Part shown: piece by piece, positions 13,187 through 35,961 of the stretch
Numbering within the stretch: the stretch's first letter is position 1
Layout: each line of letters opens with the position of its first letter
Program-made: the position numbers and the translations under genes
Notes under the pieces: model-generated
The model's database searches: none
What the model saw: only the letters and a program-made list of their open reading frames with translations
What the model was told of the DNA's origin: nothing
Assembly: GCF_002872335.1 (NCBI RefSeq)
Contig: NZ_NJAG01000046.1
Location: 1-36,038, forward strand
Length of the DNA: 36,038 nt
Direction: 5' to 3'
Source of the DNA: Siphonobacter sp. BAB-5405
GTDB taxonomy: Bacteria; Bacteroidota; Bacteroidia; Cytophagales; Spirosomataceae

Positions 13187-14505
13187 TTAAACCAACTGAT
13201 CCTGTTCCCGGATCCGATACCCGAATACGGCATACGCCAGCATCACCAACTCACACAAAACGGTAAGCGACCAGGTCCAACGCCAGGAGCCGAACAGATC
13301 GGCTAATCCGCCCTGAATCAGGGTAAAAACGGCCCCGCCAAAGACGGCGGAAATAAATACGCCGGACGCTTTTGAGGTATATTTCTGTAATCCCCGGATG
13401 GAGAGCGAATAAATACAGCTCCACATCGACGAGTGTAACAGACCAATGGCTACTAAAAACCAGAGGTTTTGGGCAACCATGGCGAAAACGGCCAGTAGCG
13501 TCGCCAGAACCGTAGTGACAATCAGTTGCGTTCGGGCCGAAATAGTGGTGAAAAAACTGGAGATAGCCTCCCTACTAAAAACCCTCCCCAGTAAAGCGTA
13601 GAAAGCAGGGCGTGAATACCCAAATCCAGTCCGGCAATGGTCAGATCGGTTCGACCAAAAAACGTAATGGGATGACCGGAATCCATGAGTTCAAAGGCAT
13701 ACAGGTTGATATTGGCACCGATGGCTACTTCCGTTCCCACGTAGAAAAAAATAGCCGCGACTCCCAAGACAAAGTGGCGGAACGACCAAATGCTTCGTTC
13801 CAGTTTTTCGGTGGAACCGGCTCGGGTGTTTTCCAGGTCGGGAATGTGGAGGCGACTGGTAATCAGAATTACCGACAGGATAGTGAATATCAACAAACTC
13901 AGGGGCAATAACAATTGATGAATCTGAATCCGATCAATGGGAATTCCACTGAACATAACCACGGTTACAAAAAAAGGAGCTGACGTCGTACCGATGGAAT
14001 TAATGGCCGTTGTAATGTTCAACCGCTGAACGGGCTGGGTTCCCCGTAACGGGTAAGACGCTACGTAAGGATTGACCACTACCTGGACTACTGCCGCCGA
14101 AGTACCCATCAGATAGGAACCTAATAGAAAAATAAGGTAGCTGGTCGGGATTTGGGCATCGGTCACGCTAAAGGTCCAATTGGGAAACTGATCACTTACC
14201 AGCGAAGAAGTGAAATACATGAGCAAGCCCGCGATGGTAAATCCCAGGCCCCGCAGGATCGTCTTTTGATACCCCACGGCATTCACCCACCGACTGCCCA
14301 GCGTCCCATTGATCAGGTATCCGGAAAAGAAGAAAAAGGAAATGAGCGTTGTTAGCGTATTCCGTAAACTTCCGGCATCCGCCAACAAGGTAAATTTTAG
14401 CGGAGCCTGAAGCTGTTCGTTGATGGTAGTTAAGAATCCAATGATAAAATAAATGAAGGTAATGATCGCAAAGGGTACGATGCTGGGCTGAGATTTAGAT
14501 TCCAT
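13187..14505 (-). pseudogene. FucP-type sugar:H+ symporter (FHS family MFS), frameshifted
   Basis: Two frames together make a protein of about 439 residues, normal for the fucose/glucose-galactose:H+ symporter family. The first (14505 to about 13567) starts MESKSQPSIVPF and has the family's N-terminal pattern IYFIIGFLTTINEQLQAPLK and internal VVQVVVNPYVASYP. At about 13567 the frame must shift by one base: it reads FLVGR and then runs to an early stop at 13522, while the other frame continues as AISSFFTTISARTQLIVTTV and ends IREQDQLV at 13187. One missing G in the run AGG(G) at 13567-13571 (C on the plus strand) explains it. Eleven or twelve helices are spread over both parts. It precedes a mannitol 2-dehydrogenase-like gene, with which it would form a sugar/polyol uptake pair. 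A base-calling error is as likely as a real mutation. Confidence 0.85.
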
Positions 14506-27215: not shown

Positions 27216-28026
27216 GGCAGAAAGTTAGAATGAAGCGAGTCAAGGCCCTAACGATTTTCATTTTTTATGTAGCCTTTTATGAATCAGGGCCCTTTGGGGC
27301 TAGTATGATTAGCCGCAGAATAGTCCCGTAGTCCTACTCTACCATTCGCATTTTTAGAAATTTGAATACCCTGAAAATGGTTTACCTAGCTACTGTTAGT
27401 ATTAGGCAAAAGGCAGGTAGCGTTGAGGCTTGTAAAAGTGAACGACACTGCAATGGTTACTACTTTTGGACTTAGTCAAACGTTGCTCTACTTTCTATAA
27501 AAGCAAACGACCAATTTCCCATTCGTTCAGCACACTGATCAGCAGAATGCGATGAGATTGATACAAATTATTGTAAAATAGAGTTATAGATTCATCAATA
27601 ATCCTTGAAAATAAATGATTGTTTTAGCAATAACTCAAATTTCATAAATACAAGTAAAACCTTAATCAAATTAATTAAAAAAGCTTAAATACTATTTATT
27701 TATAAAATCCGCTTTTGATTAATGTAATACTCTATTTACACAACCAAGGCAGGATAATATCCTTTATGTACTTTTTAATTAACTTACCAACTACTTATCA
27801 TCTTCCTGAATGCATCAACTATACGAAGCCGTTGCAAAAAGGGCAACAACAAGTTTCAAATTTTTCAAAATCAGCAGTTTACCAAAAAACCATCAACTAG
27901 GTTATTGCTGAAGAATATACAGTCGAAGTTGATAAGTTCATCAGAGGGTAGCATCAGGCCCTGGTATTAATAGCAAATTTTCCACCAGAACATTTATCGA
28001 ATTATAGAAACCTTCGATAAGTATCA

Positions 28027-28067
28027 AATGCTTTTGTATAACACAGCAATGGTTATACAAAAGCATT
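28027..28067. repeat. 16-bp perfect inverted repeat in the AT-rich region
   Basis: AATGCTTTTGTATAAC at 28027-28042 pairs exactly with GTTATACAAAAGCATT at 28052-28067 around a 9-nt loop. No T-run follows on the plus strand, so it is not a clear terminator. Nearby genes do not explain it; it could be a remnant of a lost gene's terminator or a regulatory structure. Confidence 0.9.
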
Positions 28068-28367
28068 ATTAAATAACTGCAAATAGAATAAATTTTCACA
28101 ATAAAATATCATTTAATATTCTTATAAATCATTCTACTATTGGATCTAAAATTTTGATAAAACATACAATTAAATAAGTCTAATCAATTCTGATAACTAC
28201 CAGACACTTTTCCACTGAAACTTTTTGATTTTATCATTATTGCAAATAGTAATCCATTGATTAAGATAAAATCAAGCTATCAGAATATTTAAAATGACAT
28301 TCAGTACGAAGTTATCTTAGTATAGCAGAAAATACGTTTTAAAGATGATCGGAAAATTAAGTACTGG

Positions 28368-28396
28368 TTTGTTTTCAAATTTGTTTGTACCTTTTG
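28368..28396 (+). promoter_or_regulatory. Promoter of the SWIM/DUF6493 operon
   Basis: TTTG at 28368-28371 and, 16 bp later, TACCTTTT at 28388-28395 followed by G, matching six of the key positions of TTG..TAnnTTTG (spacer a little short). The start would be near 28403, leaving a leader of about 18 nt to the GTG at 28421. It is the only clear candidate before the operon. Confidence 0.5.
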
Positions 28397-28420
28397 CTTT
28401 TCATTTGATCCAGAATTACC

Positions 28421-29764
28421 GTGTCTACCTATACCTATCACTATGCAAACGCTTCTGCGTTAAAAAGCCATTCGGCGAGTCCCTTCCTAAGTTTAGCTGC
28501 TTTCAATGAAGATTCCCTGGAAGAAGATACTCCCTGTTACTTCTGGGGTTCACTCCTGGACCCGTACGTAACTGCCCGAGCCTTTATGACTTTATCGAAG
28601 GTGGTTCGTTCCCGCTTTACTTTGTCTGCTGCGGAGCGGTCAGCCATGCGGGATCCCATTGTCACGGCTGGGGCCGGTCTGATGCGGCTGGAAGCGTTTT
28701 CGGGGTGTAACGGCGTCTATGCCCGGGTCGATATGTTACCTTCCTCGCTGGATGGTGAATTCCTGGGCAGTGGTACTACGAACGTTGACTTCAACGAGCC
28801 CATGATTCAGGCTTTAAGTACCGTTAGCCGCCAGGATAAACTCCTTTTTTCAGTGGGCGAAAAAGAGGTTATTCTGGAGAAACAGGGCCAGCAAATCATC
28901 GAACGTAAAGTAACCTTACCCACTCGCTGGATTAAAGGACTCACGGCTGTTCAGGCTTATCTTTCCACGATGGAGCCTTTCGGTTCCTACAGTAAAGTAC
29001 AAACCCTTCAGCTCTTCCAGTCTCTGCCCAGGGGAGAAACTTCCAACGATTTTTTTCTGACTTATCGGGCCAATCGTCCGGTTTTCAGTCCCGTAGCTTC
29101 GGGTAAATCCCTGCGAATCGGAGGGCTACACCGGCTTCGTTTGCTGGAGGCCCTTGTGCCTCTGCAGGAGGGTCTGGACGTTTTTCAAAGTCCGGATGAA
29201 CAGGCCACTGCCTTTGTCTTCAGGCTCGGAACTCTGCGGTTCTTACTAACACTGTCCCGAGAAACAAAACGCGGATTTTCCGGGGAAGGCAATATTCTGG
29301 ATACGCTGGTGGAAGCCGTACCCGAGTCGTATATTCAGGGAGCCCGACAGCTTTTCCAAACCAACGAAGCGTTTAACCCTACGTTGCTTTCCCTGGAAAA
29401 AGACCTCGACCCCGTTGTGCTGAATCGAGTGAGTATGCATCTTTCAGCCATGGGACTGCTGGGCTACGACGTAATCGATCACCAGTTCTTCTACCGAAAA
29501 CTGCCCTTCAGGCCCAGCCGGATCCTGAGTCTGAACCCCCGCCTGAAAAATGCCCAGTCGCTGCTGGAAGCCGATGGAATCGAAATACTGGAGCAAACGC
29601 CTGATCGTGTTCAGGCCCGGGTAAGAGGTAGCAAGGATAACGTTTACCGCGTACTGATCGAAGGCAACAAAGCCCGCTGTACCTGTCCCTGGTATGCGTC
29701 CCACGAGGGCTTACGGGGGTCGTGTAAACACGTATTAGCCGTTCAGTTAGCTCTTCAGTCCTAA
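28421..29764 (+). CDS. SWIM zinc-finger domain protein
   Basis: 447 residues from a GTG start. At the C-terminus lies a SWIM zinc finger of the form CxC-x12-CxH (CTCPW, GSCKHVLAV; Cys420, Cys422, Cys435, His437), which binds zinc and usually nucleic acid or protein. The N-terminal ~400 residues have no enzyme motif I recognise; this arrangement matches SWIM proteins that accompany MoxR ATPase/VWA systems (E. coli YehQ is annotated as such). No signal peptide, so cytoplasmic. The first gene of a tight operon: the DUF6493-like gene follows after 23 bp. Translation from GTG is chosen because upstream ATG codons are absent and the promoter is only 25 bp away. Function unproven. Confidence 0.88.
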   Translation: MSTYTYHYANASALKSHSASPFLSLAAFNEDSLEEDTPCYFWGSLLDPYVTARAFMTLSKVVRSRFTLSAAERSAMRDPIVTAGAGLMRLEAFSGCNGVYARVDMLPSSLDGEFLGSGTTNVDFNEPMIQALSTVSRQDKLLFSVGEKEVILEKQGQQIIERKVTLPTRWIKGLTAVQAYLSTMEPFGSYSKVQTLQLFQSLPRGETSNDFFLTYRANRPVFSPVASGKSLRIGGLHRLRLLEALVPLQEGLDVFQSPDEQATAFVFRLGTLRFLLTLSRETKRGFSGEGNILDTLVEAVPESYIQGARQLFQTNEAFNPTLLSLEKDLDPVVLNRVSMHLSAMGLLGYDVIDHQFFYRKLPFRPSRILSLNPRLKNAQSLLEADGIEILEQTPDRVQARVRGSKDNVYRVLIEGNKARCTCPWYASHEGLRGSCKHVLAVQLALQS

Positions 29765-29787
29765 TTTGCGTTTTTATTCTTCCCTTC

Positions 29788-32589
29788 ATGTCCTATCCTG
29801 ATCAGTTTGAACAGCTGGTAAAGACCTTAACTTTTGATGCGTTACTACCCTGGGTTGACGCTTTGCCCGCTAAAGATATCAAGGAGGTAAACGTTCGTAT
29901 TCGTCAGCTGGCAAAAGCCAATCATGCTACCATCGGCTTGCATCCCAGAAAAGAATCGCGGGGGGAGTTCCTCCTTCTGGCGGCTCTGGCCTTATTTACC
30001 AATCAGGAACGCATTAACCTGCCGCAGTACCTGGCTTTCTATGTGAAGGATGTGCCCCTGTACCAGCTGGTGGAAGTTCTGAAATACGCCCAATCCCTTG
30101 CATGGGCCAATGAGTGGATTCGTCAGTCCAAACAAAAGAACCGCTGGAATGGACTGACTTACCATAAATTGAGAGTATTACTTGAGCAGGAGGTGATTAG
30201 GCACGACCGAAAGCTTTTTGCAGAAGAAATGTGTTTGGGCTACGTTGAAAGCCGTTTTAATAATACTTCTACTCCCGAGAATCTGTTGTATGCCATTTCA
30301 CGAGACTCCTTTTTAATCAGCCACGATCTCGAATCGGTCTTTTTCTACGAAACGGCTATTGCCACCGAAGTTCATTTTGCCAACCGGAACCTGAAAGCCC
30401 TGTCCTGGATGGACATTTATCGGTACCTGATCGAGCGAAAGCAACTGGATCGGTATCGAATCCTGCAACTGTGCCTGGAAGGCCTCGTCCGGGATGACTT
30501 CAGCAAAGACCTGCTGGGGTGGTTCAGGGATCTCTTTACTGGACTGGAACCTACACCAGCGGAGCTTTTCGGTTTGCAGTTGCCTTTACTGACTCTGCTC
30601 AATACTGAATCTTCTCTGCCACTGAATCTGGCTATGGGCCATTTAAAAAAAATGGTCTTTCAGGAAGACTTTGCCTGGGAAGAATTTTTACAGCGTTCGG
30701 AACAGGTACTGAGCAGAACTGACGTCAAAAATGCCCGAAAATCAATTCTGGATATTTTGCTGAAATTTCCTAAAGCCTATCCACAAACCCAAAGCCGGGT
30801 CACCGAGCTGGCGGTTGTTTCTTTACTTACTACCGATCCGGTTATTCAGGAGAAAGCCACGAAAATTATCAGTCAGTGGGGAAACACGCAGGATGAAACG
30901 CTACGTGAACAGATTGATTTGTACGGCAGTAATCTTTCGGCGAAATCCCTTGAAAAGCTGGCAGCTTATGAAACCCGTCTGGCCTCGACGGAACAGGCTA
31001 CCTATCACTACGACCCTAGTCCTAACGTTCAGCTTATCAGGGAACAGAATCGAATTCATTTCATCCGTACCTGGGAAGAACTTCTGTACGAACTGACCAC
31101 TCCCCTCCGCAGTGATGACCCAATCAAGCTGGAGCGGATCATGGATGCAATCGTGCACCTGCCGGCCTTACCCTCAGACGCCGAGGAACAAGTAAAGCCC
31201 CTGCTAAAAAGCCATTCGTACGCTGAACTGAGCTGGGACCTGGATCAGCTGGTAGCACTGCTGCTCAGAGACTGGATTGGTGGGTTTCAGTACGCCAGAG
31301 TGCATCATTACAAACCTGGTAAGTACCACGATCCCTTTATTCCTTTCTGGCAGCAGCGGTTTAAACAGATCCCATCGTTACGGGCAGCGACTTTACCTTT
31401 TCTCAGCACGCCGACCCACGCTCCGTGCTGGATCAGCCCTTCGGTATTGATCGAACGGCTGGCATGCTATCAGCGGGCAAAAATGGCCTGTCAACCCTTC
31501 GATTTTCTCCTAGCCCTGGCCCGCACCCGACTGGAAGATACCCAGGAGGCTCTCACCAGACTCGAAAAACTGGAAGAGAGTGAAGAAACCCGGGTGCTGA
31601 GGTTTTTACTTGACCCGGCTCAGGAACTAGTTCTGCCGGAGCAAAAGAAAGCATTCTGGCAAAAGATGTACCAACGCTTTGTGGCCTCCGGCGAACGTTC
31701 GGATGTCACGGTTGAGCAGAGCTATTACGCAGTCGCGGCCCGAAGTAAATCCCCTCGGGCAAACTGGGAAGCATTTAAAACCACGGATCTCGGTGTCTAT
31801 CCCAACGTATCGACGCTCTATCCATTTGCCTGGGAACATGAATTCGAGCAACAAAACCACCGGTGGAGTAAAAATCCGGTAATATTTCAACGCCTGGAAT
31901 TTGCCAGTGAAGTACATACTCAGATTCCTCAGACGCTACTTTATTCATTGCACTATCCCATACATGGCCGTTTTGAAGAGACGCAGGATTACAGCTTCGC
32001 TGCTGATTTTCTTTTCTCTGCTTCGCTCATTCCTCAGTATCGCGAGCCACTTTACTACCGCGTTTTGCAGGTACGAGCCTTACGCTACAAAACCAATCAG
32101 TCGGATCAACAGGCACTCGAAAAAGCCTTACGAAGCCTACTGCCCGAAGAGGCCGTTTTCTACGAGTACGGATTAATGGTACTCGCCCAGGGATTTATCA
32201 GTGCTAAAGCGACGGATCGGGCACTGGCACAGGAAGTGTTCGTTCAAAAAATAGAACAACAAAAGCTGGACGTGAGAACGCTAGGGCAGGAGCTGGGTAA
32301 ATTACTGAAAGAGAATTTTGCTCCGCTCCAGCGAGTGATTGATAGCCTGGAAGCATTACGACGACTCTCTCCCCTGCACGAAGACGCCCTCATTCAGTTC
32401 ATTGAACAGATTCTGCTAAATCAGGCTTATAGTCAGCCCCCTAAAAACACGGCCAAACTCCTGTCAATCTATCAGGATCTGTTGCAGATGAATCGTCGCC
32501 GTTTACCTGATCACCTATCCGAACACCTGAACCACTGGCAGCAGTACCCGGCTTTGAAAAAAACGGTTCTGGAACTAAGCCGTATCTAA
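29788..32589 (+). CDS. Large DUF6493-like protein, first paralogue
   Basis: 933 residues, mostly alpha-helical with many Leu-rich amphipathic helices reminiscent of HEAT-like repeats (e.g. QTQSRVTELAVVSLLTTDPV, IQEKATKIISQWG). No signal peptide, transmembrane helix or enzyme motif was found. It most resembles Bacteroidota proteins of the DUF6493 family, found beside SWIM proteins; the family assignment comes from memory and size and should be confirmed by profile search. Distinct segments are YDPSPNVQLIREQNRIHFIR (about 408-427) and LSTPTHAPCWISPSVLIERL (about 539-558), both conserved in the next gene. It begins 23 bp after the SWIM gene and is followed 21 bp later by its paralogue. A scaffold role is only inference. 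Confidence 0.75.
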   Translation: MSYPDQFEQLVKTLTFDALLPWVDALPAKDIKEVNVRIRQLAKANHATIGLHPRKESRGEFLLLAALALFTNQERINLPQYLAFYVKDVPLYQLVEVLKYAQSLAWANEWIRQSKQKNRWNGLTYHKLRVLLEQEVIRHDRKLFAEEMCLGYVESRFNNTSTPENLLYAISRDSFLISHDLESVFFYETAIATEVHFANRNLKALSWMDIYRYLIERKQLDRYRILQLCLEGLVRDDFSKDLLGWFRDLFTGLEPTPAELFGLQLPLLTLLNTESSLPLNLAMGHLKKMVFQEDFAWEEFLQRSEQVLSRTDVKNARKSILDILLKFPKAYPQTQSRVTELAVVSLLTTDPVIQEKATKIISQWGNTQDETLREQIDLYGSNLSAKSLEKLAAYETRLASTEQATYHYDPSPNVQLIREQNRIHFIRTWEELLYELTTPLRSDDPIKLERIMDAIVHLPALPSDAEEQVKPLLKSHSYAELSWDLDQLVALLLRDWIGGFQYARVHHYKPGKYHDPFIPFWQQRFKQIPSLRAATLPFLSTPTHAPCWISPSVLIERLACYQRAKMACQPFDFLLALARTRLEDTQEALTRLEKLEESEETRVLRFLLDPAQELVLPEQKKAFWQKMYQRFVASGERSDVTVEQSYYAVAARSKSPRANWEAFKTTDLGVYPNVSTLYPFAWEHEFEQQNHRWSKNPVIFQRLEFASEVHTQIPQTLLYSLHYPIHGRFEETQDYSFAADFLFSASLIPQYREPLYYRVLQVRALRYKTNQSDQQALEKALRSLLPEEAVFYEYGLMVLAQGFISAKATDRALAQEVFVQKIEQQKLDVRTLGQELGKLLKENFAPLQRVIDSLEALRRLSPLHEDALIQFIEQILLNQAYSQPPKNTAKLLSIYQDLLQMNRRRLPDHLSEHLNHWQQYPALKKTVLELSRI

Positions 32590-32610
32590 CATCGCCTTTT
32601 GCCTTTACCC

Positions 32611-35397
32611 ATGACCCCTGAGGACACCTTGCAAGAACTCATTTTATCCAGCCGCCCGGATGAACTGATCGCCTTTTTACAAAACACGCCACAGTGTACG
32701 CACAAAGCCAGTAAGGCTGCTATTCGCCAGCTTAGTCAGCAACTTTTCAGTGTTTTTATACCGGAAGGGGACATTCGCAATGAGCAGTGTCGAAGCTGTT
32801 ACATGGCCGCATTGCTGACCTTCACCAGAAGTGAGCTGATGAGTATTCCTTCGTATTTAACCGTACGAACGGATGTAGAAGAAGATCAACTGATCCGCAT
32901 CTTCCAGTTTAGAAACTTCGGTTCCTGGCTACCAAGCTGGATTAATACTATGATTCAAAAAAGGTACTGGATTCCTTCCTATGCCTTTTTGAAAAGACTC
33001 GAATCGGGTCAGCTTATTAGTTATGAACCTCATCTATTCGGTCGAGTCGTTAGCCCTGATCGCATGGGGTTGACTTTTGACGAGATCGAGTCATTAGTCA
33101 AAACAAGTACCCTTGCCAGGGATTTGCTGTCATTGTTTACCCATGTCGACCTGACCAGTTCTTATGGGTATGAAACCTATTGGACTCCTTTTGTAGCAGA
33201 ATTGCTTTCCAGAAAAATCATCCTTCCCGAGGATGTATTAAAAGAGGTACTTGCCAACCTGGCCCGAAATGATTTTCACCGAACCAAATTTTTGTGGCTC
33301 AAGAGCATCGCGGAAAAAATTAAGCTTAGCTCTGAAGAAACAATCCAGGTACAGTCGGAGCTATTTGCGGTACTCACTACACAACACGGCGTAGGAATCA
33401 ACTGGGTTTTACAGGAGCTGAAACCGCTGAGCAGGCATCCTGCTTTTCGATGGGCTGATTTTCTGCTCGCCATCGAACTCTTACTGAGTGGTAAACACGC
33501 GAAGCTGGGAGCCAGCAGAGCGTTACTCATTCTGGAAGAATTACCCCTCGATCATCCCGCAGCTACGGCCGAAACGGTGCGGGTTACCCTGCCGGCCTTG
33601 CTGGTAAAAGATGCTTCCATACAGGAAAAAGTCATTCGGATCGTTGCCCGCTGGAGTCAGCCGCAGGAAGAATGGCTCCGGGAGGAATTGTTGCTGTATA
33701 CCGACATCCTTCCGGCAAACGCCTATGAATTACTGGGAAGCTTTTTATCGTCCACGCCGCCTGCTCCCATCGAACGTTACGTGTATCAGCCTAAATCCAT
33801 CCGGGTACTGACGGAGGATCGGCGTATTACTGCTGTCACGAACTGGGAAGACTTGTTATTCTTAATCGGTAAGGTTACTACCCACTTTGATGTTTCAGAA
33901 GTGGAACGCTTACTGGATTCCCTTCTTCAGCAAGGATTCGATCTTCCAGCAGATTTCCAGGATCAGGTGAGTAGCTTTCATTTTGAGGCTATGTCAAGCA
34001 AAACCATTTGGCTCATTCGTGGCTTCCTGCAGGATTGGTCCAATGGGTTTGAAACGACAGCGTTGAACCATCTGGTATCACCCGCTTCCAATGATGAATT
34101 TATTACTGTTTTCTGGGTACGAATGATGTATGCGAAAGCCCTGGCGAAAGCAAACCAGCGACTCTCCCTGCTGAGTACACCCACGCATCGGCCTTTCTGG
34201 ATTGATCCCGAGATTCTGGTATAACGTCTGTTCGCGTTTGAAAAAGCGGAGGTTGTCATCAATGAAATTGATTTAGCCGTAGCAATAGCCCGCCTTCGAC
34301 TTGAACAGACAGAAGCCGCCTTAGGTAAAGCTCAGCAGCTTCGTACGCCAAATTTTAAAACTTTACTGACGTATGTACTAAATGCGGATCAGAATCTCCA
34401 GGAATCGCTTGACGCTCTGGAACCCTATCCCTTTCATTCCATTGAAACTTCGAACGTAGAATCTTTCGCTTCAGAAGAAATCTGGCCGATGCTTCTGGCA
34501 GTAGCAGCCCGTACGAAGAATTATCTGGGCATCTATCCGGAGTTTGAAAGGTATGCTTTTGGAACCTATCCCAATGTGTGTCGACCTTTTGAAACGAAAT
34601 GGGATACCAGGACTTTCCGGGTGAAGAAAGACAGGTACTACAAAGATTCTCCCGAGATTGACCTACTCTTACTCAGCACTGATGCTTTTTATTACGACTC
34701 AAATCCTTTGCCGCTGCTGTATTCCCAACATTTTCATGGATCGTATCTTTCCAAATACACGGTCTGGGAAGAGTCGAAAGATTTTGAGATTGAACCCGGT
34801 CTTCATTATCTGTTCTCGTTGCTACCCAATCAGCCTGAACCCTTGTTTTTCAGGGCGTTGAGAAGCAGTGGACAAGGATCGGAGTCGGGTCCGTCGGGTA
34901 CCCAAAGTACGCTCCAGGGGAGTCTGACCCAACTTCTGGAAACCGAAACCCCACTTCTGGAAAGTGCTCATCTGCTTTTGGCAGCAGGGATACTCAAAGA
35001 AACGGCGAACAGTCGGCAACTGGCTATGGATATACTGGCCCAACTGATTTCAGAGCAGCGGGTCGATGCGGACCTGCTCACACAAATTATTGGCGTTTTA
35101 CTGAATCATGCGTATAGTCCCGTTCAACGCTTTGTCGATACGCTCGCGGCAATGATCAATCTGTCTCCCACACATAATGACGTGGCCTGTCAGCTGCTGG
35201 AAGGTATCCTAAAACGAATGAATGCAGAAAAGCCGCTGAAAAACACGAAGAAAATACTTTTGCAATACATTGACTTACAGCAAAAAACGGCAAGGCCTAT
35301 GCCAGCCGTCCTCGAAGAACGGCTTCAATACTGGGAAAAATCTTCAGCTTTAAAAAAGGAAGTAGCTCAACTAAAACGTTCACCCCTTACGGTCTAG
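32611..35397 (+). pseudogene. DUF6493-like protein, second paralogue, interrupted by an in-frame TAA
   Basis: The frame runs from ATG 32611 to a stop at 35395 (about 928 codons), matching the 933-residue paralogue just upstream, but a TAA stands at 34222-34224 (codon 538). Before it the protein reads LSTPTHRPFWIDPEILV and after it, in the same frame, RLFAFEKAEVVINEIDLAVA. The paralogue has LSTPTHAPCWISPSVLIERL, so the TAA replaces a Glu codon; a single G-to-T change (GAA to TAA) explains it. The rest of the frame is well conserved and shows no second lesion. As it stands it gives a 537-residue product (32611-34224) and possibly a 302-residue product from ATG 34489. Recent mutation, stop readthrough and sequencing error are all possible. 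Overall the fold and operon position equal those of the first paralogue. Confidence 0.85.
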
Positions 35398-35409
35398 TCA
35401 TTATTGCTT

Positions 35410-35961
35410 ATGGGACAATCCCTGTCATTGTATACGCTGGATACCAGCAATTTTGAACAACTTCACGCCAGTAAGGGTCAGGATAAGGCAGCAATGGCTG
35501 AAGCCAAATTTAGTCTTCTGCTACAGAAAACCTTTATGGGCTTGGAGTACGTTCTGCTCAAAGGAAGATCGGAGGATGAAAAAGAAATCCTTCAATGGCT
35601 ATTCACTCCCGATCAGTTCATCACTCCTTATGATTTCAAAAATGTTGATCCTGAGTCGTTAAGTGACGAGGAGACGGCCGACTACTGGGATGCGGTTGAA
35701 CGTATGATTCCTTACCTGAGTCCGGATCAGATCAAGACCATTCATCAGGTTTTACAAACCATTCCGGTCGATCACATCCGGCAAAACTTTAATGCCCAGG
35801 AACTCAACGAGGAAAACATTTATCCCTGGGCCTGGGCCGACTCTGATGATCCGAATGTGGCGTATACCGCCCGCGAGCTAAGTGAAAATCTGGAAGGTTT
35901 GAAGGCAACCTTTCAGCAAGCGGATGAGCAACAGGCCTACATCCTTTGCTACATAGGCTAA
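35410..35961 (+). CDS. DUF1877 (YfbM)-like protein
   Basis: 183 residues from ATG 35410 (a TTG two codons earlier is less likely). It shows the DUF1877/YfbM pattern: an early SLSLYTLDTSNFEQLHAS, then LQKTFMGLEYVLLKG (the family's W/F-x-G-L-x-x-L-L-x-G), a central LSPDQIKTIHQVLQTI helix and near the end ENIYPWAW followed by acidic residues. The family is small, cytoplasmic and of unknown function, with no catalytic motif recognised. It starts 12 bp after the second DUF6493-like frame, so it belongs to the same operon. It could be an accessory or regulator of that system; this is inference. Downstream (35962-36038) nothing else can be called before the window ends. Confidence 0.72.
   Translation: MGQSLSLYTLDTSNFEQLHASKGQDKAAMAEAKFSLLLQKTFMGLEYVLLKGRSEDEKEILQWLFTPDQFITPYDFKNVDPESLSDEETADYWDAVERMIPYLSPDQIKTIHQVLQTIPVDHIRQNFNAQELNEENIYPWAWADSDDPNVAYTARELSENLEGLKATFQQADEQQAYILCYIG

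Follow-up and report, generated by a model that had tools for sequence, protein, structure and literature searches.

A SWIM zinc-finger protein and a DUF6493-DUF7824-DUF7825 protein are encoded side by side as a conserved two-gene unit in scattered bacteria and, as judged by profile comparison, the closest kin that we found for the SWIM protein belongs to type XIII retrons, as their SWIM subunit. The unit lies in a 36,038-nucleotide stretch of DNA from Siphonobacter sp. BAB-5405 (contig C193 of the assembly; the whole stretch is called the window). We document here the linkage of the two genes, their domain make-up, the homology of one of them to a retron subunit and the different rates at which the two proteins evolve. 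We read the pair as one without ATPase or reverse transcriptase (RT) that is related to the effector pair of type XIII retrons and that probably acts on the ends of DNA or on other nucleic acid. The first-pass annotation had described a four-gene candidate system with two tandem large proteins, a DUF1877 component and a possibly missing MoxR/VWA part, and this interpretation was partly supported.

Results

The SWIM-DUF6493 operon of the window

The operon exists, though its first description needs correcting: the SWIM gene and the first DUF6493 copy are intact, and the second copy is broken. Four co-directional genes on the + strand are separated by gaps of 23, 21 and 12 bp, and the coordinates and strand first assigned to this run were confirmed. 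The first gene (28421..29764, GTG start) codes for a 447-aa SWIM protein that matches the PADLOC model SWIM_XIII (E 4.5e-52). Its zinc finger (29645..29743; Pfam PF04434, 24.4 bits) carries C420, C422, C435 and H437, which are invariant in the alignment columns and which we take to be the zinc ligands. The second gene (29788..32589) codes for the 933-aa DUF6493 protein A, in which DUF6493 (29788-30732), DUF7824 (31039-31803) and DUF7825 (31831-32580) score above the curated Pfam cut-offs for PF20103, PF25148 and PF25149 (292, 220 and 248 bits). Gene B (32611..35397), which had been taken for one intact DUF6493 gene, is split by an in-frame TAA at 34222-34224, as read from the ORFs, and thus consists of two open pieces in one frame (32611-34224 and 34225-35397). 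Across the two pieces it scores above the same curated cut-offs (110, 72 and 58, 184 bits; 110 for DUF6493). The fourth gene (35410..35961), 12 bp beyond gene B, codes for a 183-aa DUF1877 protein (54.6 bits). The contig stops at 36038, 77 bp past this gene, in a genome assembled in 246 contigs. No WGR domain was detected by Pfam in the proteins of the window.

The spacer upstream of the operon (27216..28420) is AT-rich, as first noticed (30.9% GC vs 47.6% for the window). Of the gaps of more than 150 bp measured in the window, 13 including this one, no other is as long or as AT-rich. The Bacteroidota promoter consensus (TTTG, 17-23 bases, TAnnTTTG) is absent from the spacer, so that the single promoter proposed for the four genes is putative. 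Elsewhere in the window, a 327-aa ORF (13522-14505) has by eye the look of an MFS-type transporter, possibly shortened, and adjoins a dehydrogenase-like ORF.

SWIM and DUF6493 genes form a conserved pair

Genome contigs searched with a profile from the SWIM alignment gave at least 568 relatives. The best 80, all Bacteroidota by their titles, were kept, and DUF6493 genes near SWIM were detected with HMMs built in this analysis. Among these best 80 of at least 568, all loci but L080, 79 in number, had a DUF6493 gene close to SWIM and in the same orientation, and the proposed link between the two families therefore held. The distance between the SWIM and DUF6493 HMM matches had a median of 6 bp and did not exceed 200 bp in 76 of the 79 loci, and the next commonest cluster of ORFs (at least 80 aa) was found in 13 of the same 80. 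The tandem duplication, which had been thought to build a multi-subunit scaffold, does not appear to be required, since two or more full-length DUF6493 copies occur in 6/79 loci (L028, L031, L048, L081, L085 and L091). At L081:1-9991 (Flavobacterium collinsii) and L085:223-8507 (Dysgonomonas sp. 521), at least three tandem DUF6493 genes are followed by one SWIM gene.

Across 247 Bacteroidota genomes, including that of the window, DUF6493 was present in six, the SWIM type in six, and both in five. The corresponding Fisher p of 4.9e-9 is uncorrected for kinship and overstates the independence of the cases, because three of the five two-gene genomes belong to one genus. The genome with SWIM and no DUF6493 (G300) carries a type XIII retron, as found by phmmer with the proteins of L069, and the one with DUF6493 and no SWIM (G272) has a short ORF of 553 aa (72.9 bits). 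Scattered homologues would have spoken against a system; the surveys of loci and genomes bore out the SWIM/DUF6493 pair and did not bear out the other proposed links. In a plasmid collection the SWIM type was found in eight records, all outside Bacteroidota where loci were fetched; a DUF6493 match adjoins it in 6 of the 7 fetched loci, two of the six matches being weak (36-40 bits). In this collection L111 has SWIM with no DUF6493 beside it, and L109 has a plasmid DUF6493 gene beside which SWIM was neither annotated nor found. No WGR was detected in the plasmid-collection loci. On a Diaphorobacter plasmid (L012:8720-18259), the run SWIM-DUF6493-DUF6493 comes after genes annotated as an integrase, a DNA-binding protein and a VapBC-type pair. 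A search of genome contigs with protein A of the window alone gave no match.

The SWIM protein is related to a subunit of type XIII retrons

Type XIII retrons, reportedly defined by Mestre et al. in 2020, presumably consist of RT_XIII, WGR_XIII, HEAT-ARM_XIII and SWIM_XIII, a make-up that follows the PADLOC model names. Besides the match of the window protein to SWIM_XIII given above, the SWIM family profile aligned with two retron SWIM proteins at full length (436 columns, E 1.8e-29). Of 100 near-invariant SWIM positions, 43 are kept in the single retron row of the alignment and 57 differ. The likeness also extends to the gene arrangement: in retrons and in our pairs the homologous full-length SWIM subunit has an adjacent large helical-repeat partner, with a WGR domain in many pairs. 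The partners themselves differ, since the retron has an RT and a WGR-HEAT protein, whereas the pairs have DUF6493/DUF7824/DUF7825 and no reverse transcriptase, and the DUF6493 copies of the window lack WGR. RT_XIII was matched nowhere in the genome (246 contigs) at E ≤ 0.001, and protein A and both pieces of B had no PADLOC match at E ≤ 1, the WGR and HEAT-ARM retron models included. The retron WGR-HEAT protein aligns with DUF6493 proteins over WGR only; homology of its helical part to DUF6493 beyond WGR was considered and not found. In Flavobacterium sp. ov086 (L069:109-18373), the WGR-DUF6493/SWIM pair has a type XIII retron immediately upstream and bpMoxR-bpX genes immediately downstream.

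In the literature searched, one paper (PMC11953036) mentions 'retron type XIII' a single time, among defence systems detected by PADLOC, and another (PMC10910872) mentions a SWIM domain a single time, in the legend of a figure about CRISPR-linked genes.

WGR, gene order and rates of evolution

When DUF6493 lies upstream of SWIM it carries a fused WGR in 45 of 50 loci (phmmer, with a Pfam check on L014), and when it lies downstream it does so in none of 29 (phmmer). The window has the downstream layout and no WGR, and two members of its own family are of the WGR layout, L014 as judged by Pfam and L016 as judged by eye. A WGR label given to L030 by regular expression was not borne out by phmmer and was not used. 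The SWIM tree comprised 89 rows, with L110 and L026 (a split ORF) left out and with L014 and L060 being an identical protein. WGR and gene order each change three times on this tree, so both follow it. The window SWIM groups with L019, the locus of another Siphonobacter (support 100/100), and then with 12 Hymenobacter rows (99/97), although the latter is a long-branch join that may be false according to the tree tool.

In each of 12 hand-picked species pairs SWIM was better conserved than DUF6493, with a dN 1.8 to 14 times lower, and pN was below pS for both genes in each pair. Between the window and L019, conservation stands at 88% for SWIM and at 57% and 53% for the two pieces of gene B. The DUF6493-DUF7824-DUF7825 protein is probably a helical-repeat protein: HEAT matches were found in L012, and the DUF6493 alignment weakly matches designed proteins (E 3.2e-5, 37 positions). 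Searches for related solved structures found none for the SWIM protein and none useful for DUF6493.

Neighbouring genes and inheritance of the pair

DUF1877, first listed as a component, was present in 7 of the 50 whole genomes among the 80 loci and adjoins the unit in one of the seven (L036); L038 has a DUF1877-homologous ORF beside the unit. It was rejected as a component, being rarely beside the unit and there on the opposite strand. In these two Sphingobacterium species the gene is divergent and lies just upstream of WGR-DUF6493 (L036:6051-6596 and L038:6053-6562; Pfam on L036 only). The phmmer search with the window DUF1877 protein was too weak and found none; the family model recovered L036. 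In L019 (1503-6078 and 15139-17400), a DinB-type polymerase gene (Pfam IMS), a DnaE-like gene (by eye) and a SIR2 plus HATPase gene flank the pair. A link to the DinB/DnaE genes was discarded, as the ORF set of the 80 loci contained no second case.

For the flank scan, the nearest ORF of 150-1000 aa per side was taken, one per cluster (114 in total); ORFs above 1000 aa were dropped, and with them the large retron protein next to L069. Matches at 1e-10 were obtained with 31 PADLOC models, a raw count, and the 25 of these that were listed, with one member each, include short-pAgo/SIR2, SoFic, WYL and ThiF-like. A defence-island location was not supported, the scanned flanking genes being mostly ordinary, and carriage by phages was set aside, since no relative was found in the viral contigs or phages searched.

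Such ordinary surroundings, and the absence of relatives from the viral contigs and phages searched, would suit a chromosomal DNA-maintenance or repair complex, not a defence system, which is inherited vertically in some genera. For several genera, neighbours are often common to the species of one genus, clusters 2 and 3 being present in 13 loci each out of the 80, which speaks for stable inheritance there. The strong purifying selection on SWIM fits this reading as well. The distribution argues against it. DUF6493 is patchy, being present in 5 of the 79 genomes of the kin set including our own, 2 of 6 of the genus and 6 of 247 of the phylum; the two Siphonobacter loci (the window and L019) have no common flanking DNA on the 17.4-kb contig of L019; copies occur on plasmid-collection records; and the SWIM family is common to type XIII retrons. 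We consider a repair complex possible, but rather unlikely.

The interrupted gene B could also mean that the operon of the window is decaying, copy B being a pseudogene of a unit that no longer matters in this organism. The in-frame stop favours this, as does L019, which has one DUF6493 copy, uninterrupted and related to gene B. Yet SWIM and copy A are open, and the two pieces of B are equally diverged from L019 (pN 0.289 and 0.296, with synonymous sites saturated), which points to a recent stop or to an assembly error. Decay of the unit is thus improbable.

MoxR/VWA genes are a minority association

The SWIM gene had at first been connected with MoxR ATPase and VWA genes, thought to be missing from the window or to follow it. 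No MoxR ATPase or VWA gene was found among the operon ORFs up to the contig end at 36038, and the MoxR-DUF5682-VWA operon of this genome lies elsewhere, on contig C8, with its own, different SWIM protein (SWIM-DUF5691-MoxR-DUF5682-VWA_CoxE, L106:6749-14116). The C8 operon is reminiscent of E. coli yehL-M-P-Q. Its SWIM protein and the window family align in the finger region only, for about 72 columns, so that in this genome the MoxR/VWA link belongs to another SWIM family. YehQ of E. coli had no match to SWIM_XIII, and the window SWIM is not of the YehQ type as judged by its alignment with the C8 protein, taken to represent that type (about 72 columns). In E. coli K-12, genes for WGR, DUF4132, MoxR, DUF5682, VWA and SWIM proteins form one cluster (yehF-H-I-K-L-M-P-Q). 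This cluster and the C8 operon resemble our unit in that a protein with a SWIM finger has large proteins nearby, and the yeh cluster also in its WGR gene and two long tandem genes, one of them a pseudogene. They differ from it in that the SWIM protein is of another family with the finger near the N-terminus, DUF4132 or DUF5691 takes the place of DUF6493, and MoxR and VWA are present.

The association of bpMoxR-bpX with the pair is a minority link. These genes of the MoxR-vWA-beta-propeller ternary system (bpX0-bpX4, bpMoxR) are immediate neighbours of the pair in five loci out of 80 (L057, L059, L069, L078 and L097; Pfam on L069 only), and in L037 and L061 they lie at the edge of the locus; the system is absent from the window, and 73 of the 80 loci have no MoxR-cluster gene in their flanks of up to 10 kb, some of which are cut by contig ends. 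The main text of eLife 52696 does not contain the words SWIM and WGR. Hence, with the five adjacent loci and the E. coli cluster on one side, and the 73 loci with no such gene in their flanks, the finger-only kinship of the C8 protein and the separate C8 operon on the other, it is decidedly improbable that the pair is part of a MoxR/VWA chaperone-like system left incomplete in the window.

Discussion

We propose that the pair is a DNA-sensing effector, a two-gene module complete without an ATPase; the proposal is tentative, and we put its chance at somewhat below even. The slowly evolving SWIM protein, with a conserved N-terminal region and a C-terminal zinc finger, would be one subunit, and the faster-evolving DUF6493-DUF7824-DUF7825 solenoid, with an N-terminal WGR in one large clade, the other. 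The two would assemble into a complex. Recognition of DNA ends, or of some other unusual nucleic acid, may fall to the solenoid with its WGR or to the SWIM finger, and the SWIM N-terminal region, which is conserved, may carry an output that responds to stress or to phage. Nucleic-acid binding, complex and output are all inferred from sequence. The WGR and SWIM domains point the pair towards nucleic acid, and the SWIM family common to the pair and the retron suggests an output in stress or defence. WGR is described as bridging DNA ends in PARP2 (PMC8190142). Such an output is opposed by the mostly ordinary genes in the scanned flanks and by the finding of no relative in the viral contigs or phages searched. 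Other points that weigh against the proposal are the WGR-less proteins of the window and of the plasmid-collection loci, the helical part of the retron protein, for which no kinship to DUF6493 was detected, the 57 near-invariant SWIM positions that differ in the retron row, the neighbours common to species of one genus, and the cases in which one gene lies without the other (L080, L111, L109 and G272).

A further reading, which we regard as possible but rather unlikely, is that the pair is a self-standing nucleic-acid-sensing effector and that type XIII retrons were built on an effector of this kind. On this view the WGR-solenoid/SWIM effector would be the older part, over which the retrons would have set their RT-msDNA as a guard, and the RT-free pair would sense with its own solenoid.

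In the open-access literature searched, no paper on the SWIM-DUF6493 pair or on its retron link was found and none carries the word DUF6493, in keeping with the view that the system is undescribed. If the effector reading is true, the pair would offer a route to the type XIII retron effector without a reverse transcriptase. It would also name a conserved two-gene unit whose larger partner bears 'unknown function' labels only, and would set apart two families of SWIM proteins that have little in common beyond the finger.
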